A stretch of 24,639 nucleotides of DNA from the NCBI GenBank assembly GCA_024220525.1, contig JAMYWO010000220.1, positions 45,243 through 69,881 of the forward strand, read 5' to 3'. Below are positions 1 to 24,639 of the stretch, piece by piece (position 1 is the stretch's first letter; every line of letters begins with the position of its first letter). Origin of the DNA: Cochliopodium minus. Its lineage: Eukaryota > Discosea > Himatismenida > Cochliopodiidae. The position numbers and the translations under genes are program-made. The notes beneath the pieces were generated by a model. It was not told the DNA's origin and ran no database searches. It was given only the letters and a program-made list of their open reading frames with translations.

Positions 1-294
1 TTTTAAACCAAGAAAAATTTAAAAAAAAAAAATAAAAAATAAAAAAAAAAAAAAAATGATAAAAAAAATAAACAAAAAAAAAATCATATTTATTAATAAA
101 AAATAAAAATAAAATAAAAAATATGAACAAAAGAAAATTTTGATAACAAAATTATTGATTAATTAATTAAAACTGATTAGAGTGATTTTTAATTTATGAA
201 ATGCAAGCTTGTATCTATTTTTTATATTCACAAGTTTGTATTTTAAATAAATTAATTTACATTTTAATTACAAAAAAAATAAAAAAAAATTTAC
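1..294. other. A/T-rich tract, probably intron or contig end
   Basis: Long A runs with hardly any G or C, and no convincing coding frame. On the minus strand it follows the splice donor (GTAAAT) of the RING exon at 295. An acceptor-like TAG at 217-215 would add a nine-residue tail ending in TAA at 189, but that tail supplies no zinc ligand and may be spurious. Nothing else is recognisable. Confidence 0.5.
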
Positions 295-760
295 CAAAAG
301 GACAGAAAGAATTACTTTTGCAACAACTTTTACAACAAGAAAGATCACAATTTGAACAAAGTTGGGGGTCCTCATAAAGTTTTTTGCAAAGAGAACAAAT
401 AAGAAAATCTTTTATTTCCTCAACAAAAACGAAACTTTGTTTTTCTTCTTCTTTGGCACTTTGTTCGATCGTCGTTTCTATCTTTGCGGAAATAAAATTG
501 ATCTTCTCTGACAATTCCTCCATTTTCTTTTTGTTCTCTATTTCTCCCTTTTCTAATTCTTTTATTTTTCCTTTGTTCTCTATTTCTCCCTTTTCTAATT
601 CTTTTATTTTTCCTTTGTTCTCTATTTCTCCCTTTTCTAATTCTGCTATTTTTTCTTTGTTTTGTTTGATTGTTTGATTTTTTAGTTTTATTGTTTCTTT
701 GTTTTGTTCATCCATTCTTTCAAGTTTTTCTATTTTTAATAAAAATTCTTTATTTTCTTT
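295..760 (-). CDS. Coiled-coil plus RING-type zinc-finger exon (partial gene)
   Basis: The frame is open on the minus strand from a TAA at 763-761 down to a donor at 294. An ATG lies at 715, but the K/E-rich frame continues upstream of it, so 715 may not be the true start. Charged heptad-like sequence comes first, including three 14-residue repeats (ELEKGEIENKGKIK type). It is followed by a cysteine-rich module, ICSLC...CSNC...CCKSCC...CPF, typical of a RING finger. RINGs with TRAF-type fingers are usually E3 ubiquitin ligases or scaffolds. The RING stops just after CPF, before its last cysteine, at a phase-1 donor. The missing part fits the plus-strand exon starting at 773 (see findings). 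Function is inferred from domain type only. Confidence 0.6.
537..662. repeat. Three 42-bp tandem repeats coding for coiled coil
   Basis: The same 42-bp unit starts at 537, 579 and 621, nearly identical each time, and keeps the minus-strand frame because 42 is a multiple of three. Each copy encodes 14 residues of charged coiled coil. The lack of drift suggests recent expansion by slippage or unequal exchange. Confidence 0.85.
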
Positions 761-772
761 TTAATTGATTAG

Positions 773-1077
773 AATGTAAAAATTCGGAAATGGAAACAAA
801 CTTGAATTATCAAAAGAGAATCTCAAATTTACAAGTGAATTGTTTGAGTTGCCAAAAAACAATGAAAAAGATTGATTTTGAAAAACATTCAGACTGCAAA
901 ACTTATTGCAGATGGAAAGATATTGTAGGTTGTACATTTCATGACACCAAGGGAATAACTGCTCTTCATGAAATTGATTGCGAGAAATACAAAAATTATC
1001 TCAACATCCAAAAAGAGAATTTCAATTTGGCTCTTCCTCGATACATTCAAGAATTAAGGAACATTCTTGATAAATAA
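773..1077 (+). CDS. TRAF-type zinc-finger exon
   Basis: The frame is open from an acceptor-like site (polypyrimidine tract then TTAG at 769-772) to TAA at 1077; the first ATG is at 790. It encodes about 100 residues with VNCLSC..M...F..HSDC and then GC....ALHEIDC, the paired Cys/His pattern of TRAF/SIAH-type zinc fingers, followed by a short helical tail. In relatives such fingers sit directly after a RING. Read from 773, the exon begins in phase 1 with codons giving E-C-K, which would supply the last cysteine missing from the RING exon on the opposite strand. As a stand-alone gene from 790 it would be a 95-residue protein. Function (ubiquitin-linked scaffold) is inferred only. Confidence 0.6.
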
Positions 1078-1253
1078 TCCAAATTTTTCAAAATTTGAAT
1101 TTCTTCAATAAATAATAAATTCGTTAAACCAACCTCAAAAAATTTTTCTAACCCCTTTTTTTCAATCACCAATTAATTAGAGAAACATAAAAGAAAGGAG
1201 ATTCAACATCTATCAAAAAAAGAAAAAATGGATTTCGATTTGTTTATTTACAC

Positions 1254-4200: not shown

Positions 4201-4677
4201 ATCATTTGATTCTCCAAATACTCTGGATTCTATCACACTTTCTATATAACATTCATTTTGCAATATTCTTCCTATTTCAATCAATTTATTTTTTGATAAT
4301 GAAAAAGTATCTGCGAAATCTAGTAGGTATCTGAATGAAATTGTTTATAAAATGTTATTTTGTGATATGTGGAGATTTTACTTTGCTACGAATGTTTTCC
4401 TGTAGATAGATCCTTTGTATTTTCTATTTGCAGAAATAAAAAAAATCTTCATTTTTTTTGATTCAGTTAAATAACATTTAAAGGTACCTTGGCTTTGTTT
4501 CGAATATTTCGCTTTGTATCAATCCAACAATTTCATCCTTTGATTTCAAAATTAAAAGAAACAAAGATTTTATTTTGAATAAAATTTTATTCAAAGATTC
4601 AATTAAAATGCTTTAATTATTACAATATTCATTCTTGAATCGAGGTCATTTGATGTTCTTATAATTTGATGATTCAT
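1254..4677 (-). CDS. DEP-domain RasGAP, 9 exons
   Basis: Predicted Ras-family GTPase-activating protein of about 960 residues. Exons: 4677-4624, 4537-4488, 4423-4382, 4330-4180, 4114-4081, 4018-3790, 3743-3697, 3609-1608, 1527-1254; all phases agree and total 2883 nt. Residues ~20-100 form a DEP domain (YKGSIYRKTF, then YLLDFADTFSLSKNKLIEIG). Residues ~105-370 are RasGAP: the arginine-finger motif is ILLRND (R183), YEIDP follows, and the second hallmark FFFRCFCSAFINP has R294, so catalysis looks intact. Residues ~375-870 are low complexity (S, N, P, then K/E). The in-frame TAA at 1606-1604 lies inside an intron: donor CA|GTAATA at 1607, with the frame resuming in phase at 1527. The last exon (about 90 residues) is not recognised. 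The DEP domain may target membrane or receptors. Same strand as the SulP gene, 70 bp downstream of it. Confidence 0.85.
1541..1577. repeat. AAAAAT microsatellite in an intron
   Basis: About six copies of a 6-bp AAAAAT unit lie inside the last intron of the DEP-RasGAP gene. A simple slippage repeat; no function seen. Confidence 0.8.
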
Positions 4678-4747
4678 TTTTTTTTATTTGAAGGGATATT
4701 ATATTTATAAAGAAAAAAAAAAAAAGATCAAATCTGAGAAAAAAAAT

Positions 4748-7700
4748 TTAATTGTTTTCGATAACAATGCAATCTTCAACAGGAAATGGATGAATGTTTG
4801 AAATTTTCAAAATCTCTTTGGCTCTTTTCACCGCAGCATGAATAGACCTATTTTATATTAAATATATAAACAGATTTTGAAACATAAAATTGAATTTATA
4901 TAACCTAAATGAAAAATATAAAAAGTATTTACCAAAAAGAAATATCTTCTTGAAAATTTTTGAAAATAGATGCTTTTTTAAGTTTTTCCTTGACAGAGGG
5001 TTGGAGTTGTGCAAAAAGATAATGTGATTTTTGTTTTTGGATATAATGGAGCGTCTGGGATAAAACCGCCAAACCTTTTTTTGTTTAAAAAAAAAAGTTT
5101 ATAATATTTTTTAAAAAAAAGAAATGTTTTGAAAACATTACCAGTTGTATCTATATCATTCACACTGCTCCAATCATTCACAAAAACCAATTCGGTCCCT
5201 TCTTCCTTGATGAATTCTTCAACAAATAATTTGATTTGGTTTGTGTTTGCAAAAAATAAATTTGCGTTTATTCTGAAAATTATTATTTTGGGAATCATGA
5301 TCACATTTGGGAATCTTGAAAAATTAACATAATTTGTTGTTCCTTTTTAACAAAAAAATTTTAAAAAAAATTTTTAATAAAAAATATTTGAATAAACCTG
5401 GTAATCTTCCCAATCTTTCTCTCTCAGGAGATGCCTATATACACAAACATTTAAATTAATAAAAAATTTCAAAATAAATTTACGTTTCTCAATACAAGAA
5501 AAAGAATAGAAAATCCCAACCCAAACCAAACTACAAAAAAAAAAAATTTAAAAAAATACTTTAAAACCAAACATTTGACTTTAATAGTTTATTAAAATTT
5601 AAATAAAGTTATCAAAAATGAATTATATAGGAAATTTACTGATCCCATAAATGATTCCCAATAATAAAGTGGCTGCAAATGTTAAAACCCAAATTATTGC
5701 ATCATCCTTGCTCAACTTTATTGATGCCAAAAAACTGTCAAATTTCATCAACGCTTTGCCTTTTTTTATTTTATTTTTTTTTTTTTGTTTAAAAATGAAA
5801 AGTTTATTATTTCAAAATTTTACATGCTACTATGATAGTTGCTGCGAGTACTATTTTATTTTTAAAAAAAAAGTGATAAAAATACAAAAAGTATTATTTT
5901 ATTAGGTTTTACCAGGAAAAGGAAGAAAATATAAAAGAGGTGTTGCAAATAAAAGGACTATCACAATCACAACACATGCTATCAAAGCTAAAAAATAAAA
6001 TAAATAAAAAACTATTGGAAAATGAAAAAAAAATATAAAAAAATAAACAAATTTAAAAAAATTTTAAATAAATTAAATATTAATAAAATGAATAAATTAA
6101 ATAAATTAAAAATAGTAATTATTTAAATTGATTTTTATATACCAGATATTTGAGTTTTAGAACCGGCTTGTTCATTGATGACTGATCTAGAGAGGGAAGC
6201 ACAAACAACAAAAGAACCAGTGAAACAACCTGCCACATTTGTTAATCCCAAACTTATCAATTCTTGATTGTTGTCCACACTGTATTCATATTTTTCTCCG
6301 AATACCTTGCCTAATTTTTAAAAAATTATATTTATTTAATTAATTGTTAAAAAATTTTATTTTTAAAAATATTTTAATTTTTTGTATTTTATTAAATTAA
6401 ATTTTATATTTTTTGATTATAATTTTACAAACAGAAATATTTGAAATGTAAGAAACAAGAGCCAATACAAAAGCATCAAACCACATCTCTTTTAAATACT
6501 TAAAACTTGGTGCGGGTAATGTCAATGGAGGTAATCCTGTCATATTTTCATTTTTTTTATTATAAAATTTTTAAAAATTCAAAAGAAAAAAAAAAATTAA
6601 GAAACTTTAAAAATATAAATTTAAATAAGAGAAATTTAAAAGGAAAAATAATAAAGAGAATAAATTAAAGAAAAGTTTCGAAAAAAAAAAAGAAATATAA
6701 TAAGTGTAACCTTTTGGGATAGATCCCACAACTCTGATGTTGTGTTTATCAAACCTGAAAAGAAATGAAATGAGGATTGAAAGAAAAACAATGGATATTG
6801 GCCCTATATTTTATTATTATTTGTTAATAAATAACATTTAAAATAATTAATTATTTTTATTTAAAAATAAATAATAAATGATGAATAAATACATTTTAAT
6901 TAGTTACTTAATTTAAATTTAAAATATTAAAATTAATTTAATTTTTTGTTAGGAGAAGAGGCTTACCAGGAATGTAAAGGGAGAATTGTTTTATTTTTAT
7001 TTTCTTGGAATTTATATAATCTATCAATAATAAGAAAACAATCGAAGATATTCCTATCATTTTTTTTTTAAAAAAAAAGTAATATGTTTAAAATAAATAA
7101 ATATTAAATAAAATTGATTTTTGTTTTTTTTAATAAAAAAAAAAGGAAATGATACCCAAAATACAGGATTCCCATTTGAAAGTGTGAATGCTTTCAAAGA
7201 AATGGATGATGGAATCATAAAAAAGTGATGATGGCTTCGCTGTCATCCCAAACAGAGGAGCTTTTTTTTTAATAAAAAAATTTGTTTATTGAATGAATGT
7301 TTTATCATTTATTTCAAAATTTTTTTAAATAAATAATTTTTAAATGAATAATTTTTATTTAATAATGTTTTATTTTAATAATATTTATTTTATATTAATG
7401 GTACATAAAAAAATTATTTTACCAAATTGGGAGCTCATAATGATGATAGCGGAAGCAGTAGTGAAAGAATTCAGGACAGGTATTGAAATAAAATTAACAA
7501 TCTAATGTTTATTTTTTTCCAAAAATTTTATCATTAATTATTATTAATTATTATTAATTATTATTAATTATTATTTATTATTATTAATTATTATTTATTA
7601 TTATTAATTATTATTAATTATTATTATTAATTATTATTAACTTTTTTAGAATTAACTTTATTACAATTAAATTTGTGAAATTAAATGTAAAATTAATTCT

Positions 7701-9782
7701 AAAATATGTTTATTTATTTTGTTTTTTTTTGATTTTTATATTTCTATTTTTCTATTCTAAATTTAAATTTTAAATTTTTTTTTTTACGATTCCCAGTCTA
7801 AAAAAACCACCAATCGCCAAAAAAAGACCAACAAAAAAAGTGAGAGTGAAAGTGACTTCCAAAATGAGATTAATGTCAGTTGATCCCTTTACTACTTTAC
7901 CAACACTTGATATCACTAACAAGGATGTCACTGCACTTGGTCCTATCGTCACTAATATTATTTAAAATATTAAATTAATTAAAAATATTAAATTAATTAA
8001 AAATATTAAATTGTTTAAAAATGTTAAATTATTTAAAAATATTTAATTTAAAATTTTGAGTTTATTTCTTTCACAAAAATCATTTAATCTTTTTTACCTT
8101 GTCTTTTCAAGAGAAAAGTTTTTAATTTTTATTTTTCAAAGAAAGATTTTTTTTAAAAAAAAACTAACTTTCCCATTCCAAACAATAAATAAATTATAAC
8201 AGGTAATATCAACGAGTAAAGACCTTTTTATTAAAAAAAAAACGATAAAAATTATTACTATTATTAATTATTGTTGTTATTGTTATTATTATTTTTCATT
8301 TTACCATATTCAGGAGGAAGACCAGCCAAAATGGAATATGCCTTTTTATTTATTCATTTTTTTTAGTTTTTAATTAAAAATTTTTCAAAAAAGTGATAAA
8401 ATCAACCATTCCTTGTGGAATACCTTTTTTGTTGTTTTAAAAAATAAAAATAAAAATATTTAAATAGAAATTAAAATATAAATTAAATTAAAAATGTAAA
8501 ATAAAAAAAATAAAAATGAGATTAAAAATACCCATTATTGAAATTGTTAAACCCGCAATGATATCTCCTTTTAAATAACTCAACTTATAATCCTTCAACC
8601 ATTGATAAGGAGGGAACTTTTTAATGAAATTTTTTTTTTGTAAGTAAAATAAAATGTAATAACAACAAAAATAATAAATTTAATATTAATAATAAATAAT
8701 AATAAATAATAATAAATTTAATAACAATAATAAAAATATCAATAACAATTAAATAATTAATAATAGTAATATAAAATTAAAAAAGAGGAAGTTTTTGAAT
8801 AAAATAAAATTACCAAGTTATGCAAAAAATTGGAAAACTCTTTTTTGATTCTCTCCTTTCTTTTTTGTTTTTCTCTTTCCTTAAATAAATGCTCAGAAAT
8901 GTCTTCAAATGTTTTATAACTTGTTTCATGTTTTTCTAAAAAAATTTAAATTAAAATATAACAGCAACAATAATGATGAATTTAAATAAAAAAATATGAA
9001 AAAAAACTGACCAACAGACATCAAATGACACTCTATTTTTGGAAAATATGTAAACAATAAATCATTCATGTTCTCATTAACATATTCCAAAAATTGCGAG
9101 ATTTTGAAACTTGAAGTTTCGCAAATCTTTTTTTTGAAATTAATAAAATAAATTTTTGAAAGGGATAGAGTTTTAATTACAGTCAATATTTCTTCCAAAC
9201 ATCTGTTGTATATCCTTTATAAAATTTTATTATTAATTAATTTTTTTTTTTTTTGATCCGCTTGATTTTTTTTTTACCTATTGTTTATTATTTTTGATTT
9301 ATTTCTTTGTAATTCGATGATTTCTTTGTTCTTCGTTTGTGATTTTGTAAGACTATTCAATTTTTCCGAATATCCTTTTCCAAAATAAAAAAGAGAAAAA
9401 AAAAGATTTTTTCATTTTTCATCTATTTTCATGATTTTTTTTTTTACCTTCTATTTCTTTTTTAAATTGATTATCAATCGATTTTGGCAATTCCATTTTT
9501 GTTTGTACATTGATGATTCCTTGTTATATTTTTAATATCGTTTTTTTCGATTTGATTTCTTATTTTGCTTACCTTCATATAAAGAGAGAACACCTTTAAT
9601 AATTTGCAATAAGTTTTATAATAAAGTTTGGCGAGAATTACTTTCATTTTCTGTAACATAGATATTTTCCAGTTGGCTAATGATTCAATAAATAATTAAA
9701 TACTCCAAAAAATAAAAGCCAAAATATACCTCAAAGTGAGGATATCATTCCCAATATACTCTGCCTTGACTGTATTGATCAT
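4748..9782 (-). CDS. SLC26/SulP anion transporter with STAS domain, 27 exons
   Basis: Predicted membrane sulfate/anion transporter or exchanger, about 780 residues. Exons (minus): 9782-9730, 9676-9642, 9593-9573, 9519-9448, 9374-9278, 9202-9012, 8935-8814, 8616-8532, 8423-8407, 8341-8305, 8223-8169, 8102-8098, 7951-7788, 7501-7423, 7260-7156, 7053-6967, 6803-6711, 6536-6429, 6310-6143, 5987-5913, 5850-5824, 5759-5640, 5530-5484, 5434-5398, 5342-5142, 5074-4933, 4847-4748; the sum is 2343 nt, in frame throughout. Family marks in order: FPPYQWL, GDIIAGLTI, IPQGM, AGLPPEYGLYS, VTIGPSAV, IPVLNSF, NNQELISLGLTN (residues 489-500), SLSRSVINEQAGSKTQ, LFFAN and IDTTG (697-701) in the STAS domain (~634-770). 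Residues 1-197 are an unrecognised coiled-coil extension; exons 1-6 could conceivably be a separate gene, though the phases join cleanly. Start ATG 9782 is a best guess. Confidence 0.88.
7532..7640. repeat. TTATTAATTA-type tandem repeat in an intron
   Basis: Roughly ten copies of a 10-bp TTATTAATTA unit, with some 7-13 bp variants, fill much of the longest intron (7502-7787) of the SulP gene. A likely polymorphic microsatellite. Confidence 0.85.
7961..8045. repeat. About 20-bp A/T tandem repeat in an intron
   Basis: Around four imperfect copies of a unit like AAATATTAAATTAATTAA sit in the intron between the 5-nt exon and the exon at 7951-7788. Confidence 0.7.
8098..8102 (-). other. 5-nt microexon of the SulP gene
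   Basis: On the minus strand the sequence reads intron...AAAAG|ACAAG|GTAAAA. The upstream exon ends GGA AA (8169) before GTTAGT. The downstream exon begins TG ACG ATA GGA CCA at 7951. Only insertion of ACAAG gives an open frame (GGA AAA CAA GTG ACG) and the family-typical stretch FGMGKQVTIGPSAV. Direct joining of the flanking exons would shift the frame. Flanking introns are 66 and 146 nt. Confidence 0.72.
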
Positions 9783-9908
9783 TTCAATAACTATTCTGCA
9801 ACTAAATTGATTTTTTTTTTTTTTTAATGATTTTTAATTTTCAATGAACTTTTCATTTAAAAAAAATTCTGAAGAAAAAGTTAAAAAGGACATAACTATA
9901 TTTCTTTT

Positions 9909-11675
9909 TTAATTGGGGGAAAGAATGGTAGAAGTTCTGAGTAACAAACGATCTGTCTCATTTCTGAGGGTATCATAAGCAAGGAATTGATCAGAAGATT
10001 CATTGGAGGAAATGTTCTGGGTGTTGGGAAGCTTGGAAATCAAAAGAGCCAAACAACTTTGCAGATTGCTAAAAGTGTTTGTGGAATCTTTCTTGTTGAG
10101 CTTTTTGGCTTCAAGAAAAGAAATGGAGATGGAAAGAAGATTCAAAGACTTCCAAACATTTTGGATGAAATCATTCTGAGAATTGGAAGCAGTGGAAGAA
10201 TTAAAAGAAAGGGAAAGAGAAGCATGAGAAGAGTTGACCATTTGAGTAATGGAATCAGAAAGATGGGAAACCATAAAGTTGTTGTTCAAAAGGGAAGATA
10301 AAAGCAAAGAAGAGTTTTCCTCCAAATCGTCCACTGATTGGCAAACTTCTTGATCTCTTTCATATTCAGAAAAAGAAGAAAGAATTTGACCAAACCATTT
10401 TTCTACGAGGAGAGGAGTGAAAGATTTAGAGTATTGAGAAGCTACCACTATTTCATTGAGAACACTCTTCCATATCTTATCTGATTTATCCTTCTCTGAA
10501 GATTTAGGAAAAGAAGAAGAGATGATTTGAGAAAGGGAAGAAATGTTCTCCAAATACTTTTCTTTCAAATTAAAGTTAAAGTTTCCTTTTTTGAGTAAGG
10601 AGTAGGTGATTTTGGAAGAAGAAAGAGTGAAAATGGAAAGAAACTGGGTAAACTCGTTTTTCTTGTCATCTTCTAACATCAAAGCTTGCCCGATTTGCTT
10701 TAGAAAAGAAAAAGTGAGCTCAATCGACTTGTGGGAGGTGAAAAAGGAAAAAGAAGAAATATCAGAGATGAAAATTAACACAATTTTGGTGAGAGGAATG
10801 AGATGAGAAAAGAGAAACTCTTGGTTTTTTTCAAAAGAAGAAAAAAAAGAAGAAATGTTTTCATTGCACCACTCTATAAACTTTTCATAAAAAGCATTTC
10901 TGTTTGAATGGGTGGTATCTGTTGTTGAAGTTTCTTTTTTGCTTTTCTTTTCTTTGTTTTCGAGGAAATCTTTTTTGGATTGAAAATGAGTGTTAAACTT
11001 GCAAAAAGAAAGGAGACAAGTTTGAAGGAAAGAAAGGGAAAAGAGAGAGTGTTGTGTTGATGTCTTTTTTTTCTGTAAAAAAGAAGAGAGAAAATCAAAG
11101 ACCTGATCAAAGAGGGAGGTGCAAATTTTGGAGAGGGGTTCTGATGCGAATAAATCTTCTCTCAGCTTTTCTTCGCTCATGATGCTGTTTATTATTTGAA
11201 ATGATACCAGTGAAGCTTCCATCAATGCTTCTCCTATCTTTTTTTTACTTTCCAACACTTTTCCTATGTTTTGTGATATGCCTTTATTTTTTATTATAAA
11301 TAAAATTAATTGAAATTTTAAAAGAAATCATAAAACATTCAAAATGTTAAAAAACAAATCATAAAAAATGATGAAATAAAAAACACAATTTAAATAATTT
11401 TGAAAAAAAAAAATTAAAAAAAAGAAATTACTTTTGATCACTAAAGATTGTTTGTTCCAATTGTATAAACAACGTAAGATCATGAGATAAGTGGTGTTGG
11501 AGGAGGTTTTCTCTAATTTTTCAAATTGAGACAAAACATTTTTGTAAAAAGAACCTATCGTCTGTTGGGGAAGGTAAGAACTTATTTGCAATATGTCATC
11601 CATTGCTGTTTCATTTTCCGAAAATCTGTTGCACAACATCTCTATCATGTTTGTGTTGAATCCCCCACATAATTT
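9909..11675 (-). CDS. NCAPG2: Condensin II subunit G2, 3' half of gene
   Basis: This is the C-terminal part (about 538 residues) of the HEAT-repeat condensin II subunit G2, which acts with SMC2/SMC4 in chromosome compaction. Exons are 11675-11432 and 11281-9909 (TAA). The first begins after a TAG acceptor at 11678-11676 in phase 0 and needs an upstream exon. That exon is the plus-strand block ending at 24570, since the intron donor and first bases at 11852-11784 are the same sequence as 24571-24639. Joined, the gene totals 3564 nt, 1187 residues, close to the vertebrate protein length (about 1140). The C-terminal half is helical and S-rich with little recognisable identity; the assignment rests on the joined gene. 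The SulP gene follows 126 bp downstream. Confidence 0.85.
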
Positions 11676-11783
11676 CTAAAAATAAATGATTAAAAATAAG
11701 AAAAATTAAAAACAAAAGAAAAGAAAATATTTTTAAATAATACAATATAAAAAGATAAGTTAAAATAAAAATTTCAAAATAAG

Positions 11784-11860
11784 TAAAAAATAAGTAAAAA
11801 ATAAATAAATAAAAGAAATAGACTCATATAAAAATAAAGGGGGGGTATGTACCAATTTGA
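11784..11860. repeat. 77-bp inverted copy of the window's 3' end
   Basis: The reverse complement of these 77 bases equals 24563-24639 without mismatch, including the C7 run. It covers the last 8 coding bases of an NCAPG2 exon and the first 69 bases of the following intron. Identity ends exactly at the N at 11861 on this side and at the window end on the other, the signature of an unmerged assembly overlap. Confidence 0.95.
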
Positions 11861-11861
11861 N
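11861..11861. other. Ambiguous base N marking an assembly join
   Basis: The only N in the window. To its left is the continuation of the sequence that ends the window; to its right is unrelated sequence leading into the 3' flank (11862-12031, A/T-rich, no gene seen) of the orphan gene at 12032. If the left piece were a true inverted copy, a G would be expected here (complement of C at 24562). Confidence 0.85.
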
Positions 11862-12031
11862 ATCCATCATTTTGGTATATCCAGACAAACTTTATTTGAT
11901 AGAATAAGATTTAATATTTAGAATTGATAAACAAAATATTCAAATATCTTCTCGGTCGCTATCAAGAAACAATTTTTTTTATATATTTATTTTTATTTTG
12001 CACTTTAAATTATCAAATTATGAAATTTTAA

Positions 12032-12985
12032 TTAATCTTTTTTGATAACATCCATGATAGAATTTGTTATTTTGGGAGGCAAAACACCAGAGATGACAAC
12101 AAAATCTCCTTCTAATTCAACAGGAAATAATTGTTTGATGAATTGATAATCAAAATCAGGATTATTATCAGAAACAAGGTGCAACAAAGTAGAAAGTAAA
12201 ATCTTGAATCTTTTTTGGGCATCAGACTTTTCTATTCCTTCAGAAATTTTTCCTTTAAAAGAAAGAGTGGTAAAATTGGATTCGCTTGTTGAAAGTTTGA
12301 AGATAAGTTCATCAAAATCAGAAAGATTCAAAAGGAACCATTGAAATTCGGAAGAATCTTTTGGAATTTTGCTATAAATTGCCACATGATAATCATTTGA
12401 ATTGATCAGATTTTGCAAAAGAGGAGGATGATCATTTTCAATTTTCCCTGAAATCCTTTCTTTAAATTCTGTTTTGATTGAATCATCCATTGCTACCAAA
12501 AGAATATCCTTGCCCAATACTTTTGTGTTTTTATCCAAAGAGGTAATAAAATAAGATCCAGGTTGGACTTTAAAAAAGTCAAATGTTTTATTCTCTTCTT
12601 TTTTGGTATATTCTGAGATTTTTGGGTAATATTTGTACAAATTCTCCAATACATTTCCACCAGATGCCAATACATAGGTGCTTGATAACAAAAAATCTGA
12701 AGAACCAATAATAGAGGCTTTAATATTTTCTTCCTTTGCCAAGAGATCTAAGTAACCAGAATATTTTTTATTTTCTTCAGAGATCTTTTCAAGTGATTTT
12801 GAGAATATTTTCATTCCTTCTCTCTCTTTAAATATTATAACTAATTCTGTTTTTGGAATCCAATCAATTGGTATTTCTTGATTATATGCCAATGCCAAAG
12901 AACCAAATGCTCCAAATGAAGCTAATCCAATCATTTTTTTATTGAATAGGGGTTTTTTGAAGAATTGAGACATTTTCTTGAACAT
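12032..12985 (-). CDS. Orphan protein with basic, hydrophobic N-terminus
   Basis: An intronless frame of 317 residues from ATG at 12985 to TAA at 12032. I do not recognise a family. The first ~17 residues are rich in lysine and phenylalanine (MFKKMSQFFKK...), followed by a small-residue hydrophobic stretch (IGLASFGAFGSLALAY, residues ~19-34). This suggests a mitochondrial-type targeting signal or a single N-terminal membrane anchor. The rest is soluble and mixed alpha/beta in character, without cysteine clusters or obvious catalytic motifs. A second ATG lies four codons in. It is divergent from the glycosyltransferase gene with only 44 bp between start codons. It is one of very few genes here without introns. 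Confidence 0.72.
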   Translation of the reverse strand: MFKKMSQFFKKPLFNKKMIGLASFGAFGSLALAYNQEIPIDWIPKTELVIIFKEREGMKIFSKSLEKISEENKKYSGYLDLLAKEENIKASIIGSSDFLLSSTYVLASGGNVLENLYKYYPKISEYTKKEENKTFDFFKVQPGSYFITSLDKNTKVLGKDILLVAMDDSIKTEFKERISGKIENDHPPLLQNLINSNDYHVAIYSKIPKDSSEFQWFLLNLSDFDELIFKLSTSESNFTTLSFKGKISEGIEKSDAQKRFKILLSTLLHLVSDNNPDFDYQFIKQLFPVELEGDFVVISGVLPPKITNSIMDVIKKD

Positions 12986-13029
12986 TTTTTTTTTATATTT
13001 CAGTTAAATTTTTCTAAACAAAAAAAAAA
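12986..13029. promoter_or_regulatory. Very short divergent promoter region
   Basis: Only 44 bp, T-rich then A-rich, separate two divergent start codons (12985 minus, 13030 plus). Both 5' leaders and any shared core promoter must lie here or inside the opposing coding regions. No TATA-like element stands out from the A/T background. Confidence 0.5.
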
Positions 13030-14188
13030 ATGCAACTACAACCAAAGATATTATTTCTTTACTTCATTTCATCTATTCTTTCCATTTTTCTTATATATCT
13101 TTTTTATGGACAACATAATCACAATGAAAATATCAATAATCTAAAAAATCACATCATCCAACTCACAATAAAAAATGAAGACCAAAAAAATCAAATCAAA
13201 TTGAGAGAATCAAATTTCATGAAAAGAAGCAATGATTTCAAAAATAATAAGGTTGAAAACATTATTTCTTTTTCACCAAATAATTTGCCTCAAAAAACCA
13301 ATTTAAATCCTCCAAAATTTGCTTATTGTTTTGTGATACATAATTGCAATGATAAAAATAATTTCACTCAATTAGTTGTGATGATTCAATCTCTTGTTAA
13401 TACTGGTAAATTCTCAACTGAAATCTCAAAAATTAAAGTATTAATTTGAATTTTAAGGAACAACTGATCAATTTCTCTTATTATATGAACAGTGCCAAGA
13501 TAAACACACAAAATTTTTGAAAGATAATTTTGGAGAAAAATTAAAATTGATAAAAACTGAAAATAAATTGAAAAATGAACCCCATCTAAAACATATCAAT
13601 CACTCTCATTTTTATAAATTTAATATTTGGTTAGTGAAGGATTATGATATGATTGTTTATGTTGATTCAAACAGTTTAATCCTTCAAAATATAGATATTC
13701 TCTTTTCTTCTTCACCTCCTATCACTTGCGGAATTCTGAATGAAGAAACTAATTGTGAAAAATGGAAACAATTTACAAATCAAAAGAAAATAAGCAGTTC
13801 TCTTATTTCCATTCATCCAAATCAACATCTTTGGGAAGAACTTTTAACAAAATTAAAAATGGATAGAAAAAACGGAAATAAAGAAAATTCCTTTCTTACT
13901 TCCTTTTTTGGTGATATGGCAAACTATCTTCCTCTTCAATATAATTTTTTTCCTTCCATGTGTAAATGTATTTTTTTGATGAATTGGTCTCTCACCAAAT
14001 CTATTTATTATCATTCAACATCCAGCAACCTACATTGCAAAGATTGGTTGCAAAAAAATCCCACTTCCTTGGAAGAGGAGTGTAATCACAGAATTTCAAT
14101 CTTTTGGAATCAAACCCTTTATTCTCTCCCTTCTTTAATTTCAAAAAAGCATTCTTTTGATCCAATCACCTACACTTTCGATATTTGA
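13030..14188 (+). CDS. GT8-like type II membrane glycosyltransferase, 2 exons
   Basis: Exons 13030-13437 and 13493-14188 are joined in phase 0 across a 55-nt intron (GTATTA...ACAG), giving 367 residues. An N-terminal signal anchor (ILFLYFISSILSIFLIYLF) fits a Golgi/ER type II enzyme, followed by a short polar stem. The catalytic region resembles glycosyltransferase family 8 (glycogenin/galactosyltransferase-like): FAYCFVIHNCND...SLVNTG near the start, FYKFNIWLVKDYDMIVYVDS then N and LILQNIDILF, and a late IYYHSTSSNLHCKDW where the family has its metal-binding histidine. The usual DXD motif reads D194-S-N196 here, so metal binding may be altered or the enzyme inactive. Donor sugar and acceptor cannot be told. 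Confidence 0.75.
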
Positions 14189-14675
14189 TAAATTAAAATT
14201 AAATTATAAAAAGAAAAAAAAAAAATGAATTAATTCACAAAACAAGAATATTTAAAATTTCTTAATAAAGAAAATAATGTGACAATATCAACACTCCAAT
14301 TCCTTGAAATGCGAAAAGTCAATTGAAGAAAACTGAAAATGAAGGAGATTTCTTCATCACACAAACCGAAGGAAATGATTTTTTTTTACTAATGATAAAA
14401 AAACAAAAGAGGGAAACCTCCTTTTTCACTTCCTATTCTTAAAGTTTGAACCTAAAATGAAGAATTTAGAACATTTTTATATGAAGAATGTAAAATAAAT
14501 TTTTTTTTAATTTTGATTGTTGTAAAAGACTTATCGTCAGAAAAAGGGGCAATGGAAGGACCTTCTACCAAAAACAGATTAAGAAATGCAAAGTTTTCAA
14601 TGCTAAATTGATTAATCAAATAAATTGATAAAAGAATTAATTTATTTTTTAAAAAAAATTTTTAATTATTAATAT
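14189..14675. other. Convergent intergenic region with weak exon-like stretches
   Basis: This 487-bp gap between the 3' ends of the GT8 and RhoGEF genes is long for this window. On the minus strand an acceptor-like ATTTAG precedes an open stretch at about 14608-14475 containing LVEGPSIAPFSDDKS. A second acceptor-like CATTTTAG is followed by VQTLRIGSEKGGFPLLF and then a stop. No start codon or in-frame connection to the upstream gene was found (that gene ends at TGA 14676), so no gene is called. No RNA gene was recognised. Confidence 0.35.
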
Positions 14676-17600
14676 TCAAATAAGATTTTTTGCCAAAAAA
14701 AATAAAAATCTTGAAAAACACTTTTTGTTATCTGTGTGCAATTTGTTGAGTTTATCCCTATCTATTGAAAATAATAGAGATTTATCTTGTGTACAAACAA
14801 AAGAATAAGAAGATCTAGGTTGATAAAAAAAGTTGGAATCACCAAAAACTGTTCCTTCTGAAAATACTTTTACAATCTTTTTTCCTTCTCTTTCTTCTTC
14901 AGAGTACAAACTAAATTCACCACATTCTACAAAAAAGAGGTTTCTAGTTAGCATACCCTTTTGGATGATCACCTCTCCTTTATTGCACAGTTTTTTTAAT
15001 GAGAAAGAAAAGATGATATCCCAATCAGAGAAAGTAAGCCAATGATCAGAAAGAACAGAAAGAGGATCTTCAAAGGTTATCTCGCTTAAAATTTCTTCTT
15101 TTTTCTTTTTTGAGATCATTACAGAATTTGTGCGTGTGAAAAGTGTTTTTTTTCCACATTTGTTGATGTAATCTTCGAATTGTTGAAATTTCTTTTTGTC
15201 ATTGAAAGTAAATACATATTTTTCTTTGTTTGATTTTTGAGAAATGGAAACTTCTTTGTTTTTTGGATCAAACTTTGTGACAGCATACAAATCAAAAGGA
15301 ACAATATAGTAATCATCCTTGAAATTGTTTGAAAACAAAGAACAACTAAAAGAAAAGCCATGAGAATACAAGTGTAAAATACCATTTAAATGAAAGGGCT
15401 GTAATTGTTGTTGAGAAGAAAAAGGGTTTAAAGAACCAAAAGAAGAGTTTGCAGAAAAAAAGGAATTAGAAGCATTATTTAAATTACCACTGTTATTGTT
15501 ATGACTTGATGAGACAGGATCAGAAAGAAAAGGATGTTTTAAAGTACAATCTAATTCTTTTAACAAATCACATTCATCCAAATTTAAATTAGAAATGAAA
15601 CGAAGAATGTTTTTAGAAAAAGGAGAAGAAAAAGAAAGTAAGAGTTGTTGTTTGGTAGTTTCACTCAGGGAATAAGGGGAAACGTGGTGGTTAAGAGAAC
15701 GATACAAGGAAAGATCAGCACAAATCATGTAAAACAGTTTGCTACTTATGTCCACATTCAAAGAGAGATGACGTAATAAATGAAATGGAGAAGATGTGTA
15801 ACTAATGCTATCTTTCGATACACAAGTCAATTCTGAATTGAAATTGTAAAAATTAATTGTATTCAAGGTGGAGGAGGAATTGTTTGTGTTATTATTAATT
15901 GTTGAATTGTTATTGATTGTATCATTGGAATTTGTATCGCTATAATTTGTATTATTATTGTTATTTTTATTATTATAATTTGTATGATTGGAAATATTGT
16001 TATTATTTGGAGAATTCTCCATAATTTTTAGAGGAAAAAGAAGAAGAGGAGAATTCAAGTATTCAGCTTCCCCTATTTTTGGATGGTATCCCTGATTACC
16101 AGCTATTTCCAATTTCCCCTCTTTGACATAAACAAAAAGACCTTCCACGTTGTGTTTTTCTCCCTCTTTCAATCGCAACAATTCAGAATTAGAAAAAGAA
16201 GAGAGTTTATCTGTGTTTTCATTTTCTTTAGTTTCTTTGGGAGTGAGGGTAGTGAGGGCAGTGTTATTTTCTCCTTGTTTAGGTTTCTCTTTTAAATCAC
16301 CAAAGAGAAGAGACCAATCCAGTTCTTTCATCAAGTTTTTTCTCATATGAGAAGACAAAGAGAGGAGAGTTTTAAAGTAAAAGTCATTGTTTTCAAAAGG
16401 TTGGAGTTGTTTGGTTAGTGATTCTTTCCAATTGTTCTCTTCTTCCTCGAATTTCAAAATCAATGTTGTTTCTTCCAAGCATGGAAATTCCTCTGTAGTT
16501 TTGTTTTGATAAAAGTAGAACCCAAAATCTTTATGAAATAAAAATTAATAAATAATAAGAAAATAATAAATAATCATAAGAAAAAAATAAATAAAAAACC
16601 AACAATAAACAATAAAAAATAAAAATTAATAAATAAAATAAAAATTAACAATGAAAAAAAAAAAAAAAAAGAATTACCATCACATTGAAAAGAAAGGTAA
16701 GAGAGAGATAAAGAATGGAAAAATTTGAGTTTTTCGTTGAGTTTAGGTTTTTTGAGGAATTTTAAAAAGAGGATCCGATCAGAGCATAAAACGACATAAA
16801 CTTTTTTGGTTTTTTTCATTTTGAGAGAACTTCTTGAAAGAGTAGAAGAAAGAGACTTTGATTGTTTTCCATTTAGAGAAAGTAAAATACGAGCAACTCC
16901 TTCTTTAATGAGTTTAGTGTTATTGAAAAGTTTGACGAGGTTTCTATCTTTAGCTTGAACCATGAAATGAATTTTTTCCAATTTTTTGAGGGCCTCTTTG
17001 TCATCATTTGCTTCATTTATTTTATTTGCCATCTCTTTCAGTTTTATTTTTGCTGATTTCAAGTTTTCTTGGTCTGGATCATTCCCTGCCGTCACTTTTA
17101 GTTGATCTTTTATCAATAAGATATACCTTGGAATTCTCTATTTTAAAAAAGCAAATTAAAAAAATAAAATAAAATAAAAAATAAAAATAATGAAATGATA
17201 CAAAAATAAAATTAAAAAAATAAAATAAAATGAACCAAAAAATAAACATAAAATTAAAAAAAATAAAATAAAAAGTAAAAATAATGAAATAATACAAAAA
17301 TATAATAAAAATTAAATTAAATTTAAAAAAATGAGGAATACCTGAATGGGAGAAAGAAGAAGAGAAGTGATGTCTTCTTTATTGTTTTTGTTGGCAAGAT
17401 CTTTCAAAAAGAGTTTGAGAGGAGGAATGTCCTTAAGTTTTTTAACCATGTCAACAGCATTGGGATAATTAGAAACATAATTTTTGTAAACACCCACAAT
17501 GTTATCCATTTTCAAAAACAAAAGACCCATCATAGGTTTTTCATACCAAAAGGTGCACAACTCTTCTGTTAATTTTAAAAACTCTCCATTTAAAATTAAA

Positions 17601-19359
17601 AGCATCTGAACATTCCCAAATATAACTTTTATTGCTTCTGTGGTGAGATGTTCTTTAATTTCTTGAGAAAGGTTTTCGTCAGTCATGGAGACATAAAACT
17701 TTTGAACGAGTCTTTGTAGACCATCCACGTAGGTTTTTTCTGTTTCGTGCAACTCTTTTGCAATTTTCTTTCTTTTAAGTGCTCTTAAAAACTTTTTTCT
17801 GCTCAAATATTTCTTTACGTTTCTTTTTATCATCTCCGCCCCCCTCTCCTCCTCCTTACTATAACCCCCCCTCTCCTCCTTATTAAATGTTCCCCTCTCT
17901 TCCTCCTTATTAATTGCTCCCTTCTCTTCTTCCTCTTTCTTAGTTCCTCCCCTCTCCTCCTCTTTATTATATCCTCTTTCCTCTTTCTTTATATCTATAT
18001 CTACCAGATCTAATTTATTCTCTTCTTTAAGTTTCTCCTTATTTTCTTCTTTCTCTTCTCCTTTAATCTTTTTCTCTTTATCTCTCTCTCCTTTTTCAGA
18101 ATTGATAATTTCCCCTCTTATTTCTTGAATGGGATCAAGGGCAGATAAAGAAATCAAATTTGATTTCACATTTTCTACATCAACATCATCAACATCTTCT
18201 TCTTCATCTTCTTCATCATCTTCTTCATCTTCATCTTTGAGAAATTTGATTTCTTTTTTTGGAGATAGCTGCTCGTTCTGAGAATCCTTCTTTGTTGGAT
18301 TTCTTTCCTCAGGAGAATCTTCTAAAGAGACCAAAAGATGATTTTTGGTCTCTTCATTGTCCTTTAAAAGTGATCCAGAATTCTTAAGATTCACTTCATT
18401 CTTTTCCCCAACAATTAAATTTCTTTCATTCTTTTCTTCGGATTTGTAAACTTGTGAGGGGGAAGTAGATTTAATTTCATTTTCCAATTCTTCTTTGTTT
18501 TGTTTATCATCATTCAATTTGAGTGTATTTGATAAATTCAAATTTTTTCTGAGTGAAGATCTATCATTGTGAGGTGCAAAATCCTTTTTACATTCAAAAT
18601 ATTAAACAAAATTGAACTATTTTATTCGAAATTGATACGAGATAATTTTACCTTTTGCATTTGCACTTGTATACTTCTATTTCTGCTTGATAAAATTTGG
18701 CTTTTGAAGGTAGGAATTTGCAATTTATCGAAAAGGAAAGGATATAATTTTGCCATTTTACAATTTCTCATTCTTTCAAAAAGATCCCTCCCATTATATT
18801 GATTGATATGTTGTATTTCTTCATTGTTATCTTCTATATAAGAATCTATTGATTGAGAAGTATCGAAATTTTCTTGTATTTGATCGTTATGATTTATTTC
18901 TTCTATTTCTATTTTATGTTCTGTAAGATGTTCAACCATAATTTGTTCTATTGGTTGATATGCTTCAAAATCTTGATTGATGGGATTCTCTTCGATCTGG
19001 ATATTATTTTCTAAATAATTTATATCCGAAGAATCTTGTTGATCTATTTGTTTTTCTTCTAAATAATCAATAATATTATGTTCTATTATTTCTACCAAAT
19101 CTTTTTTTTCACCAATTTCAATATACTCTTCTGAAATCTTCTCAATAGCTTTATTTTCTTCTATGTTTGAAGGATTATTATCTTTATTATCTTCCTCAAT
19201 TGAATTATTTTCATTTGTGGATTTATCGTTTATTTTTTCCATTCTAAGATTCACTTGATCCATTTCTCCTATATTAGAGTCTTCAAAAGATGATTTTTTA
19301 TCCTCTTCATCATCCGAAAAGAATGATGTATTTTGTTCAAAAAATTTTTCATCAGACAT
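14676..19359 (-). CDS. RhoGEF (DH-PH) with C-terminal cyclic-nucleotide-binding domain, 4 exons
   Basis: Predicted Rho-family guanine-nucleotide exchange factor of about 1420 residues. Exons: 19359-18652, 18583-17342, 17137-16678, 16528-14676; total 4263 nt, phases 0, 0, 1. Residues 1-480 are acidic and low complexity. An IQ-like basic helix (IKRNVKKYLSRKKFL) is at ~488-505. The DH domain is at ~510-705: IAKELHETEKTYVDGL, and SPIQ joined across an intron to RIPRYILLIK. The PH domain (~725-845) is also split by an intron (LCSDRILFLKF). A poly-N linker and an unrecognised region come next, then a PH/GRAM-like strand-rich module (~1185-1265), then a cyclic-nucleotide-binding fold (~1283-1420) with KGEVIIQKG, FVECGEFSLY and FGDSNFFYQPRSSYS in place of the phosphate-binding cassette FGE...RSA. 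Likely couples cAMP/cGMP to Rho activation; the DH and PH assignments are firm, the regulation inferred. Confidence 0.85.
17164..17304. repeat. Imperfect intronic duplication
   Basis: In the intron between the two DH-coding exons, a roughly 45-bp block (17164-17210) ending in AATGAAATGATACAAAAAT recurs with few changes at 17263-17304, about 97 bp apart. An A-rich tandem duplication; no function seen. Confidence 0.65.
17836..17990. repeat. KEEERG-coding degenerate tandem repeats
   Basis: Plus-strand CTCCTCCTTA-like units repeat at 30-36 bp spacing and encode, on the minus strand, about five copies of (N/S)KEEERG(G/A). They form a charged helical spacer just before the IQ-like helix of the RhoGEF. 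This is one of the most G/C-rich spots in the window. Confidence 0.75.
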
Positions 19360-19638
19360 TTTATGATTTGAGCAAATTATATTAGACCTTGAATGAGGGG
19401 ATCTAATTTTTATTGAGGGAACTATATCTATTTGAAGGAAAATAGGTATTTTTTTTATTATTTATTAATATCTCTTCCCTAATAACAATGAATTTAAAAT
19501 ATTATTCAAAATTAATCAAAACAGATATGAAATGCCAAATACATCTTTATTTTTTGATAATTTTCAAAAGAGAATTAATGTTAAATATAAAAAAAAATTG
19601 TTTGGTTTTATTTTATTTGAAAAAGAAGATTGTTAGAT
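19360..19638. promoter_or_regulatory. Shared upstream region of two divergent RhoGEF genes
   Basis: These 279 bp separate start codons at 19359 (minus) and 19639 (plus). No coding frame is seen. It contains T-rich tracts and the only G-rich pocket (GAATGAGGGGATC near 19391), a possible factor site, but no defined element can be named. The arrangement suggests possible co-regulation of the two RhoGEFs. Confidence 0.45.
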
Positions 19639-21703
19639 ATGAAGAAAGAAATGAATAGGGGTGGATCTGTTTTGATGAATGAAGAAGAATCAAAAAAAAA
19701 TCATTCCAAAAGTAATTTAATTTAAATAAAATTAATCCCATTTTTTCTTATATTGAACTCAAATGAATAGCAATCAAAACCATAAAATCAAAAAATAAAG
19801 ATAAATCAATTGATCAAGATTTGACCGATTCTCCAAGTAAATTAGTTATTTTTATTAAATATAATAAAATTTTAATATTATTGAAAGTGAAATCTAGGTC
19901 AACAATAAGAAATAGAGCTTTTTTGAGAGAAAATTCAACGAATGAAGTGAATAAAGAACCCCTCAAAAGAAATAACACCAAACATATGATTACTGTCACC
20001 TTCCTGGGTTTGAAATTTAAATTTTTTATGATCAAAATTCTTAAAGTATAATAAAATTTTAGATGCAACACATACCAACCTTATGATGGATTTATCCAAC
20101 AAAGTTGATGATCTAATGAGAAAAGTATGTATGAAGAGACAAATAGAATACTCTATGCATCATTTTGAAAGAGTGGATGGAACAATTATATCATTAGGTT
20201 CATTTATTTCAGATATAAGCAATGAAATGCACATCCTATTGATTCCAAATAAAGATGATCTCGATGAAATCACGATCGAAGACGAATTTCTAGAATTAGA
20301 CAAACCCAAAAAAAAGGGGAAGAGCAATCTTTTGGAAGTGATTGATTTTTCATTTGATTCGGAAAGCGGTCTTATTGATCAATCATTGTTTATTGAAGAT
20401 TCACTAACTAAAGAAGAAGAAAATTATAAAATTGATTTATCTCTTTTGGAAATGAAATCTATCCCCAAAGAAATCAAATGTATGAGAGATAATATTGCTT
20501 ATGAAATTTTGACAAGTGAACAATCATACATGAGAGGTCTCATTGTATTGAGAGAAGTAAAAACAAATTTAAAATCTCGACATCAAATTTAAATTATAAA
20601 TTTAAAATTTTTTATTTAGTTTTATTGCAATCAAGTTATATTCTATTGTGAAAAAAATTGCTGGCCTAATCAAATCCAACAATCATTCAAGAAAATAGAA
20701 ATGATGATAGAAAGTATAATTTCCATCAATATGATTTTATTGAAAAATTTGGAGGGTAAAAATAAAGATTTTTTTTCTTCCACTATATAAAAAAATAATT
20801 CCCTTTTATTCTAGAGAGATTGACCGATTGGGAGAGTTCAAAAACAGTGGGAGATGTGATTCTAAAGTTGACACCATATTTAAAAGTATATACAACTTAC
20901 ACATCAGAGTATGATAGATCTATTGAGGAAATTGTGAAATGGGAACAAAAATTTGTTCCGTTAAAAGAGAAAATGACAGAAATAATGGAAAATCCCAACG
21001 TGAAAGATTTTATGAGATCTTTTGCGATCACTCCTGTTCAAAGAGTTCCCAGATATATCTTGTTGATTAGAGATCTCATCAAAAATACAGAACCTTCCCA
21101 TCCTGATCTCCAATATCTTCAAGAATGTCTCGATAAAATGTCCAAAATCGCTCAAGAAGTAAATGAATCAATAAGAATGGCTGAAAACACTTCCAAATGT
21201 TTGTCCATACAAAGTTTGACACTCAATCTTGATGATGTACACATCCTTTTTTTTAAAAAAAATTCTATTTTTAAATTTTCAATTTTTATTCTATTTTAAA
21301 CAAGATAATTGCTCCTCATAGGAAATTTCTTAAAGAATCAAAACTTAAAAAAGTATGCAAAAAAGATACTCAAACGAGAATAGTCTGGTTATTTTCGGAC
21401 ATTCTGATTTACGCCCATAAAATCTCAGGAAGCGAAAAATTGACCAATAAGCACAAGAAATATTCTAATTCTCAAATCTTTCATTTGTTGCATTTGGAAT
21501 CAAATAATCCAATCAAAGTTGAAGAGAATCCAGAAAACGAGAATATACCAACCCAAGATAAAGATAAATCTTTCCAAATTATCTCCGATGACAAGACATT
21601 CATTTTATTAGCTTCTTCAATTGAAGAAAAAAATGATTGGATAAATTCTATTAATTTGGCCATTCAATCAGAATTAAAGAATAAGAGCACTTTTCATTTG
21701 TAA
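19639..21703 (+). CDS. RhoGEF (DH-PH) with N-terminal ubiquitin-like/RBD-like domain, 7 exons
   Basis: Second Rho exchange factor, about 569 residues. Exons: 19639-19711, 19771-19836, 19888-20007, 20063-20556, 20620-20755, 20815-21236, 21305-21703; total 1710 nt, in phase. Residues ~75-145 (MITVTFLDATHTN...VDDLMRKVCMKRQI...HILLIP) have the layout of a ubiquitin-fold Ras-binding-type domain. The DH domain runs ~231-440: NIAYEILTSEQSYMRGL, then FAITPVQRVPRYILLIRDLI, the family's most conserved helix. A PH domain follows at ~455-565 (IVWLFSDILIYAHK ... IEEKNDWINSINLAI). This is the minimal DH-PH catalytic unit that loads GTP on Rho/Rac. The RBD-like module might place it downstream of a Ras protein. 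The 5' end is the least certain part; the first two introns were chosen from phase. Confidence 0.85.
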
Positions 21704-21752
21704 AAAAAAAAAAGTTCGATGATGTTTTATTAAAGTTTATAAAAAAATAAAA

Positions 21753-22371
21753 ATGAAATTATTTCTGATTGTATCTATTTTCTTTTGTTTATTTTTTGGA
21801 ATTTTGGGAAATCAACAAAGGTTTGGACATTCAACCATTTTGGTAACAAATTCAACAAAATGGCCTGGTTATTCATTATTGATTTGGGGAGGTTATTCTT
21901 ATGTAAATAAAAAAAATGGAGTATTTGGTGGAATGCAAGATTCTATAATTAAATGTGATATAAACAATAAGAGGTATAAAATTATATTTTAAATATCTCA
22001 TTTCAATAAAAACATAATTTTTTTTAAATTCCCAAAATCAATTTTAAATATATTTTTACTCTCAAAGCTGTGAGATATTGTTAATTAATGGAACGCTCCC
22101 TACAGGACGGGCTTTTCATAAAGCAGTATATGATAGTAATAATAATAGGATGATAATAAGTGGAGGAACGACCCAAGTGAGAGATTTTGGTTTACGATCA
22201 AATGGTTTCATCAGATCATGTGGAAGATCTGATGTTTGGTCTTTTGATTTAAATACTTTATCATGGAACCAATTGGTCCAACATACCGGAAATTGCGAAA
22301 ACTCTTCTATAAAATTGGCTCCTTTTGGAATATTAATCATATCTATGTTATTCTTGATTGTATATACTTGA
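21753..22371 (+). CDS. Small secreted kelch-repeat protein, probably GPI-anchored
   Basis: Exons 21753-21973 and 22068-22371 are joined in phase 2, giving 174 residues. It has a clear signal peptide (KLFLIVSIFFCLFFGILG), then two to three kelch-like blades: RFGHSTILV...LLIWGGYSY; GTLPTGRAFHKAVYDSNNNR then MIISGG; SDVWSFDLNTLSWNQL. The protein ends in a polar NCENSS region followed by a hydrophobic tail (FGILIISMLFLIVYT) at the very C-terminus, the layout of a GPI-attachment signal. Full kelch propellers need five to seven blades, so this is either an oligomerising fragment or a truncated relative. It starts 49 bp after the RhoGEF stop on the same strand. The surface role is unknown. Confidence 0.75.
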
Positions 22372-22464
22372 AAAATTAAAAATATTTATTTTGAACATAA
22401 CAATATTTTTATTTGGCGCCAAAATGATAAAAAATAATAAAAAAAAAAATCAAAATAAAAAATA

Positions 22465-24570
22465 ATGGAACCAAAAAAACTAATAGAAGTGCTTGAACAA
22501 AAAGATATCGAGATATTGTTGGATACCATTCAAAAAGAAAAACTTGATTTTAAAGTATTATTTACATCTTCAACAACTAATGATAACCATGAAATATGGG
22601 ACAATCTTTTGTCAATGACTTTAATATGCCTAGAAAAAATTATAGAATATCAAAATGAAGATGATTTTCTGGTAAATTAAATTTTAAAGCCCCAATTTAT
22701 TCGATTTTAATAATTCAACCAATCAGAATAATGAAGAATATAAAGTTATGATGTCATTTCTCTTGTATATAGTCAAAATGGCACAAGAATTTTTATCAGA
22801 TAAAGATAGATCAACCCCAGATCCCCTCTTTGAAATAGCAATTTTGCTACACAGTAAGAGTGCATTTAATTTATTAACAAATATTAACCCATAAACAAAT
22901 AAGATAAGATATTCGATTTCAAGGATGTACAATGTGGGATACACGATGGAATATCGAGATTATGTGAAACATGGTGGTTGGATGAAAAACCAGGAAAAGA
23001 AAGATTGATTATTACACCCCCTATGTACCTTGCTATGAAATCATTGGAACTCAATTCCAAAATAGCTGATTTAACGAGATTGTATGATATCAGAAAAGGT
23101 TTATTATTGCTTGATTTGGAAGAAGAATCCTCAAATGGTCTCAAAGATTTGCTCCTTAGATGTGTAATGCATCCTCGGTTCCTTTCTAATCCAAAAGGAA
23201 AAAGATTCATCTCTTTCCTCTTTTCTTTGTACACTCCATTCATTGATGAAATCCACAACATTATCAAAGCTCAAGTAAATTTTTTTTTTGATAACTATTC
23301 CTTTAAAGGCTTCAATTTTTTTTTTCAGTTGGTGACATTCAAAAAATCAATAGCCCAATCATATGGAGAAATATATTTCAATGCATGGAAATCAGCAACG
23401 GGACAATTTTTGATAAAAATAGAAAACAACTGTATCCAAGATTTGATTGAAAATGCCATCTATCTTTCCGACAAAGGAATCCTCTCCTCACTAAGAAACA
23501 TTTTAGATTATTTCAACACACAAAGAAAATACAAGGGATTAGATAAAATGTTGTTGACATTGTATGAACCATTGTTGTGGAGAAATTTAAAAGTTACAAA
23601 CTCTTTGGTGAGAAGAAATGCCCTTGCTTTGTTTATCAACGCTTTTCCCTTACAAGATGCCAATGCAAACAATGTACAAGTGAGTACCATTCTCCAAAAA
23701 CAATTCAATGAACTGAATGATCTTTTGTTTGATACGGATGCTTCCGTGAGAGAATTGTGTGTGAAAGGAGTGAGCAGAATCATCAACATTTACTGGGAAA
23801 TGATTCCTTCTGCTGCAATAAAACTTTTGTTGGGTAAAATGGTGAATCATCTTTCTTTAGACAGTAACTCTGCAAAAGTGAGATTGGCAGTAGTGGAAGG
23901 ATTAAACTATATTTTGGACAATTTCCTTTCTCATTCTCTTTTAAAAGAAATTTTGCCTTCTTCTTCTCATCTTTTCCATGACAAAGCGGATTCAGTGAGA
24001 GCAGCATACAGCAAATTATTGGTTACCGTAAGAAACGTGAAAAACATTCATTTTCTTGACATCGTTACTCTTGATGACATCCTCGTCCATCTTCAAATTG
24101 ATTCCAAAAAACCAAGAATCGCTTCCACTTTAACCAAGCTTCTCCTTCAAAACTTTTTCCCCTCCAAAATAAGTTCTCAACATCTCAAAACGTTTAAAAA
24201 AATATATCAAAGCAACGTGGACGCCTGTTTTACTTTTTACTCTTACGTTCATCACTTTGTAAATTTGGAAGCTATTTGTGTTTTCATTCTTCTTCAAATG
24301 AAATACATCAAAAAAACCCTTTCTTCTTCTTCTACCTCCTCTTCTAATCTATCCTCCACAGGAGGAGATGACATGGACAATACAGAGAATATGGAAGATA
24401 AAGAAAATTCTCAAAACAACATTTCCCAAAACAATTCTCTTAACAGCACTACTGGCTCTTCTTCCAAGGATCGTTCTTCTCTCGTCATTGGAATGCTCAA
24501 AAACATCCGCGTTCTTTGGGATTCCATTCAATCTAAACTCAAACTCTCTGAGAACAAAGAACTCAAATTG
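22465..24570 (+). CDS. NCAPG2: Condensin II subunit G2, 5' half of gene
   Basis: Exons 22465-22671, 22727-22853, 22904-23274 and 23329-24570 encode residues 1-649 of the condensin II HEAT-repeat subunit, needed for early mitotic chromosome condensation and interphase chromosome organisation. Conserved stretches include GIHDGISRLCETWW, LLLRCVMHPRFL, and the core LYEPLLWRNLKVTNSLVRRN, then ALALFINAFPLQD, and WEMIPSAAIKLLL, all matching animal and plant NCAPG2. An S/N/D-rich insert (~590-620) precedes a helix. The frame is open to a GTACAT donor at 24571, where the window runs into intron and ends. The rest of the gene is on the opposite strand at 11675-9909, joined in phase 0. Introns here are 50-55 nt. 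Confidence 0.93.
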
Positions 24571-24639
24571 GTACATACCCCCCCTTTATTTTTATATGAG
24601 TCTATTTCTTTTATTTATTTATTTTTTACTTATTTTTTA
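24563..24639. repeat. 77-bp terminal overlap, inverted copy of 11784-11860
   Basis: These final bases hold the end of an NCAPG2 exon plus 69 bp of intron. They are an exact reverse complement of 11784-11860. Since they stop at the window edge, they look like the end of a sequence piece that should have been merged with the left piece. Confidence 0.95.

Follow-up and report, generated by a model that had tools for sequence, protein, structure and literature searches.

Gene content of the locus

The window, i.e., the whole stretch of DNA analyzed here, comprises 24,639 bases of the Cochliopodium minus genome and corresponds to positions 45243–69881 of scaffold JAMYWO010000220.1 (C220). This scaffold has 69,881 bases, so the last position of the window is the scaffold end. 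Coordinates given without a scaffold name are window positions and the features described are collected in Table 1. To the right of the single N found at 11861, the 12.8-kb piece 11862–24639 appears to contain some six gene models, an estimate that comes from open reading frames (ORFs) and Pfam matches and not from a gene predictor. Two neighboring loci on opposite strands both contain RhoGEF domains, the minus-strand one with a cyclic-nucleotide-binding domain downstream as well. The last model is the 5′ part of a gene for the condensin-II subunit CAP-G2 (NCAPG2), the rest of which is found to the left of the N on the minus strand.

Table 1. Features of the window and exact 77-base shared ends in scaffolds C220 and C350.
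Feature	Position	Strand	Evidence or remark
Left contig, right-end copy of the 77-base overlap	11784..11860	−	exact reverse complement of 24563–24639
Single N, scaffolding join	11861..11861		only N of the window; other single-N joins occur in the assembly
Flipped contig, right-end copy of the 77-base overlap (scaffold end)	24563..24639	+	length of C220, 69,881 bases
Contig almost certainly in the wrong orientation	11862..24639		11860 is continued by its right end and not by the left one
CAP-G2 exon 1	22465..22671	+	ATG and donor; frame open
CAP-G2 exon 2	22727..22853	+	sole frame-keeping acceptor among six tried
CAP-G2 exon 3	22904..23274	+	aligned to 9f5w chain G
CAP-G2 exon 4, most of Condensin2nSMC PF12422 (profile positions 39–149)	23329..24570	+	Pfam match; alignment to 9f5w chain G
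CAP-G2 exon 5, beyond the join	11432..11675	−	extends the 9f5w chain G alignment from chain residue 644 to 724; best of 293 candidates
CAP-G2 exon 6 and stop codon	9909..11281	−	in frame with exon 5
Frame	12032–13003	−	ORF
Frames	13018–14188	+	ORF
Cyclic-nucleotide-binding and RhoGEF frames	14676–18601	−	ORF and Pfam
RhoGEF frames	20032–21703	+	ORF and Pfam
Kelch frame	22048–22371	+	ORF and Pfam
CAP-G2 5′ part	22465–24570	+	ORF and Pfam
77-base shared end, pair in the window	11784–11860 / 24563–24639	opposite strands	exact match
77-base shared end	end of C220:3092–25486 = start of C220:1834–3090		exact match
77-base shared end	end of C350:2159–15666 = start of C350:1–2157		exact match

An inverted-match scan of the window showed that its last 77 bases are the exact reverse complement (77/77) of those immediately to the left of the N, which is the only non-ACGT letter of the window and the point where the match ends. 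The second-longest exact inverted match is a local palindrome of 22 bases at 4574–4595. In the searched assembly (44,654,751 bases in 598 contigs) a 40-base part of the repeat was found in these two places only, with 0 matches for the same query read backwards as a control. The ends that overlap (right and right) are different from the ends that have been joined (right and left). At its left end the piece gave a match of 92% between 11862–12002 and C41:84950–85085, near a long run of N in C41; this match probably represents a dispersed repeat lying where a contig ends and provides no exact neighbor.

Inverted repeats on both flanks are also the geometry required by a real invertible segment, in which 11862–24562 would lie between true 77-base repeats with unique flanks on both outer sides, both orientations would exist, and recombination would turn CAP-G2, a condensin-II subunit, off and on by breaking and restoring its gene. 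We consider this exceedingly improbable and reject it because the outer copy stops exactly at the scaffold end and because a length of 77 is found elsewhere, in six other shared ends, none of which is such an inversion (see below); besides, the inner copy stops exactly at the N and the 40-base part is absent from the rest of the searched assembly.

The CAP-G2 gene across the join

When the sequence is rejoined as 11862–24639 followed by the reverse complement of 11783–1, with the overlap merged, 24,561 bases are obtained, in which a six-exon CAP-G2 gene extends from 22465 (+) to 9909 (−) and encodes 1187 residues, the two strands meeting in phase 0 after residue 649. The exon borders were placed by hand and delimit introns of 55, 50, 54, 177, and 150 bases, the 77-base overlap taking in 8 bases at the end of exon 4 plus 69 at the start of the 177-base intron. 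The initial annotation had described a perfect 77-bp overlap with an N at the join, a plus-strand NCAPG2 frame ending at a donor (24570/24571) that is repeated at 11852 on the minus strand, a minus-strand exon at 11675 continuing in phase 0 to a protein of about 1187 residues, and a true length of about 24.56 kb; all of this was reproduced, including the acceptor before 11675 (−). We infer that the 24570 side and the 11675 side are physically joined. A minus-strand gene running through the N as given was also considered and rejected, the next long minus-strand frame (323 aa, 12032–13003) matching no Pfam family at E ≤ 0.01.

The identity of the gene was assessed with two outside references, a Pfam profile and a protein structure. 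The region 22918–24569 matched PF12422 (Condensin2nSMC) with E = 2e-50, scoring 171.2 bits (cut-off 27). Chain G of PDB 9f5w is the condensin-2 complex subunit G2, and the plus-strand half alone aligned to it with 300.9 bits over residues 34–648, while the joined protein reached 323.8 bits over 33–730 of its 1187 residues in a continuous alignment, unbroken at residue 649/650. The C. minus protein differs from chain G in its final 457 residues (731–1187), which gave no sequence match to it, presumably through divergence, and whose placement follows solely from frame and splicing. The minus-strand half by itself (exons 5 and 6) matched nothing in the PDB at E values up to 10, and its assignment to CAP-G2 depends on exon 5, the frame and splicing.

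Exon 5 was ranked among 293 candidates, i.e., frames preceded by [CT]AG and open for at least 60 aa within 246 N-free bases, drawn from the window and further sampled loci, minus three loci that duplicate other sampled stretches. Each candidate was trimmed to 82 aa, as long as the predicted exon, and appended to the plus-strand half, and the product was scored against residues 39–724 of the chain, the stretch shown in the alignment of the joined protein. The exon starting at 11675 (−) ranked first of the 293, with 325.6 bits vs. 313.3 for the runner-up (mean 304.5, s.d. 2.1), although the 82-aa cut and the limit at residue 724 derive from the predicted exon and favor it slightly. The maximum among 200 shuffles of the predicted exon was 311.8 bits, a value that no other candidate from the window exceeded.

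The scaffold as given shows two truncated CAP-G2 genes on opposite strands, and they could be real and separate, as in a rearranged or degenerate locus. This is exceedingly improbable: both halves are open in frame, they jointly cover the protein without overlapping, and they stop at opposite borders of a single intron. Nor was a second CAP-G2 copy found in the searched assembly, with 5/5 protein matches and 2/2 PF12422 matches falling in C220, which is weak evidence given that the smallest of the contigs whose length was read measured 10,038 bases, so that short scaffolds may be missing, and that runs of N may conceal sequence. The PF12422 search matched 0/14 control genomes, and C. minus itself was its sole positive control. 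Frame, intron, and the lack of another copy likewise led us to discard a pair of separate condensin pseudogenes.

Shared ends elsewhere in the assembly

Eight scaffolds were read whole, namely C220, where the finding was made and which is not a random choice, C300, C350, C400, C450, C500, C550, and C598; C1, C2, C3, and C100 were left out as too long. They contain nine single-N joins and 18 pieces, although ends beside longer runs of N (e.g., at the start of C220 or C300) may not be true contig ends. Both C220 (within C220:1–1833) and C300 (within C300:1–25157) open with long runs of N, which is unusual. Many of the sampled contigs have AT-rich simple repeats at an end, with units such as TTTTTTA or TTTTA (C300:39906, C350:2159, C350:15668, C550:1, and C598:1, among others).

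Terminal overlaps other than simple repeats were found in three cases within these scaffolds, and all three measure exactly 77 bases. In every one the two pieces are neighbors across a single N, yet the ends that overlap are not those that were joined. Single-N joins contradicting the overlaps thus amount to 3/9, or 1/6 if C220 is left aside. Besides the pair in the window, C220:1834–3090 and C220:3092–25486 are probably in swapped order, and probably so are C350:1–2157 and C350:2159–15666. Frames open across these two overlaps (109 aa in C220 and 126 aa in C350) are weak supports. By eye, the C350 frame resembles a coiled coil. The remaining 14 terminal overlaps, 15 to 70 bases long, are AT-rich simple repeats and were excluded from the count, including two between single-N neighbors in C400 (45 bases) and C598 (57 bases).

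From the 36 piece ends we took the 22 whose 3-mer entropy was 4.3 or more and searched the assembly with them. Exact partners were checked in four other scaffolds (C80, C376, C116, and C108), and 4/4 stop at exactly 77 bases. The match in C376 is a scaffold end, and those in C80, C116, and C108 are internal, with no N in the 351–401 bases read; the end matched in C108 has many copies at 99% and is the weakest of the four. The end C598:2379 gave matches of 99–100% over 70 to 77 bases in several scaffolds, which look like a dispersed repeat. Lengths other than 77 thus occur where piece ends fall in such repeats, e.g., 70–72 bases for this end, which speaks against the k-mer explanation. A match of 97% in C136 was seen for the end C220:3090.

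Since shared 77-mers also occur inside other scaffolds, they mark branches in the assembly graph, and further evidence is required before two pieces are called adjacent; for the pair in the window it is provided by the CAP-G2 gene. Such branch points, together with the haplotigs and the reduction step reported for this assembly (PMC9198077), would also suit a small contig lying between the two neighbors in one haplotype, the 24,561-base join then being the path of one haplotype or slightly incomplete. This is very unlikely, however, considering that the joined intron has 177 bases with a normal donor and acceptor, and that the protein alignment has no large gap at the join.

Origin of the arrangement

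As far as its assembly description goes, PMC9198077 reports a C. minus draft genome of 50.6 Mb in 1474 scaffolds, with 26.33% GC and a longest scaffold of 649,451 bases. Illumina reads were assembled with SPAdes using Canu contigs as trusted contigs, Redundans cut duplicate haplotypes, and SSPACE scaffolded the result, with scaffolds divided wherever a gap exceeded 10 kb; the artificial mate pairs, whose inserts were 200–50,000 bp, are described right after a SuperNova linked-read assembly (PMC9198077). Compared to the published size, the 44.65 Mb in 598 contigs searched here probably leave out short scaffolds. SPAdes leaves overlaps at contig ends (PMC5481147). In C220 these overlaps persist in the scaffold, facing away from the join. 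A usual last k of SPAdes is 77, and this was presumably its last k in the C. minus assembly too. SSPACE puts a single N where an overlap was expected but is absent, and the N at 11861 would mark one that the scaffolder expected and missed.

The window carries what a contig placed in the wrong orientation would leave behind: a join marked by an N, an overlap of the same length as the k-mer overlap found elsewhere in the assembly, and a gene restored by the flip of 11862–24639. It is almost certain, in our view, that the arrangement is an assembly artifact in which this contig was scaffolded backwards, splitting an intact, one-strand CAP-G2 gene. SPAdes would have left two contigs, 1–11860 and 11862–24639, with a common 77-base k-mer at their right ends, and SSPACE, given the artificial mate pairs, may have linked them with the second one reversed. 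The common 77 bases would then not face each other, so that the contigs would not be merged and a single N would be written. A backwards placement that left the 77-base graph overlap unmerged explains both the N and the presence of the two copies. The true order would be 1–11860 followed by the reverse complement of 24562–11862, again 24,561 bases. Faults of this sort seem to recur in this assembly, the one at 11861 being an example. A point against one uniform error is that both joined ends look wrong in the order swaps, and only one in the window.

That the window is mis-joined and that a flip restores one NCAPG2 gene had been proposed by the initial annotation, and the proposal gains support from the alignment to 9f5w chain G, the 293 candidates and 200 shuffles, the ends shared over exactly 77 bases, and the combined use of SPAdes and SSPACE. 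Its estimate of the consequences was partly right: two truncated condensin genes would indeed be annotated, although the figure of three genes on wrong strands looks low next to the approximately six models.

Implications for the annotation

The case resembles the scaffold inversion misassemblies of QUAST, in which part of a scaffold is likewise reversed relative to the true sequence (PMC7993450). Unlike that class, it was recognized without a reference genome, by the k-mer overlap and the split gene. The main text of the genome report (PMC9198077) makes no mention of condensin, NCAPG2, misassembly, assembly error, or inversion, and a literature search on misassembly in the C. minus genome assembly returned no report for this species. 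A single N accompanied by an exact 77-base overlap between a different pair of ends from the two pieces it joins is a warning sign for users of the assembly; it also points to two more probable order errors among the eight scaffolds read and could serve to find such joins assembly-wide. The mis-join in C220 is very probably an artifact and not a biological feature, and brings no new biology. What it affects is how the gene is read: annotating the scaffold as given would break this condensin-II subunit of C. minus into two fragments, one on each strand.
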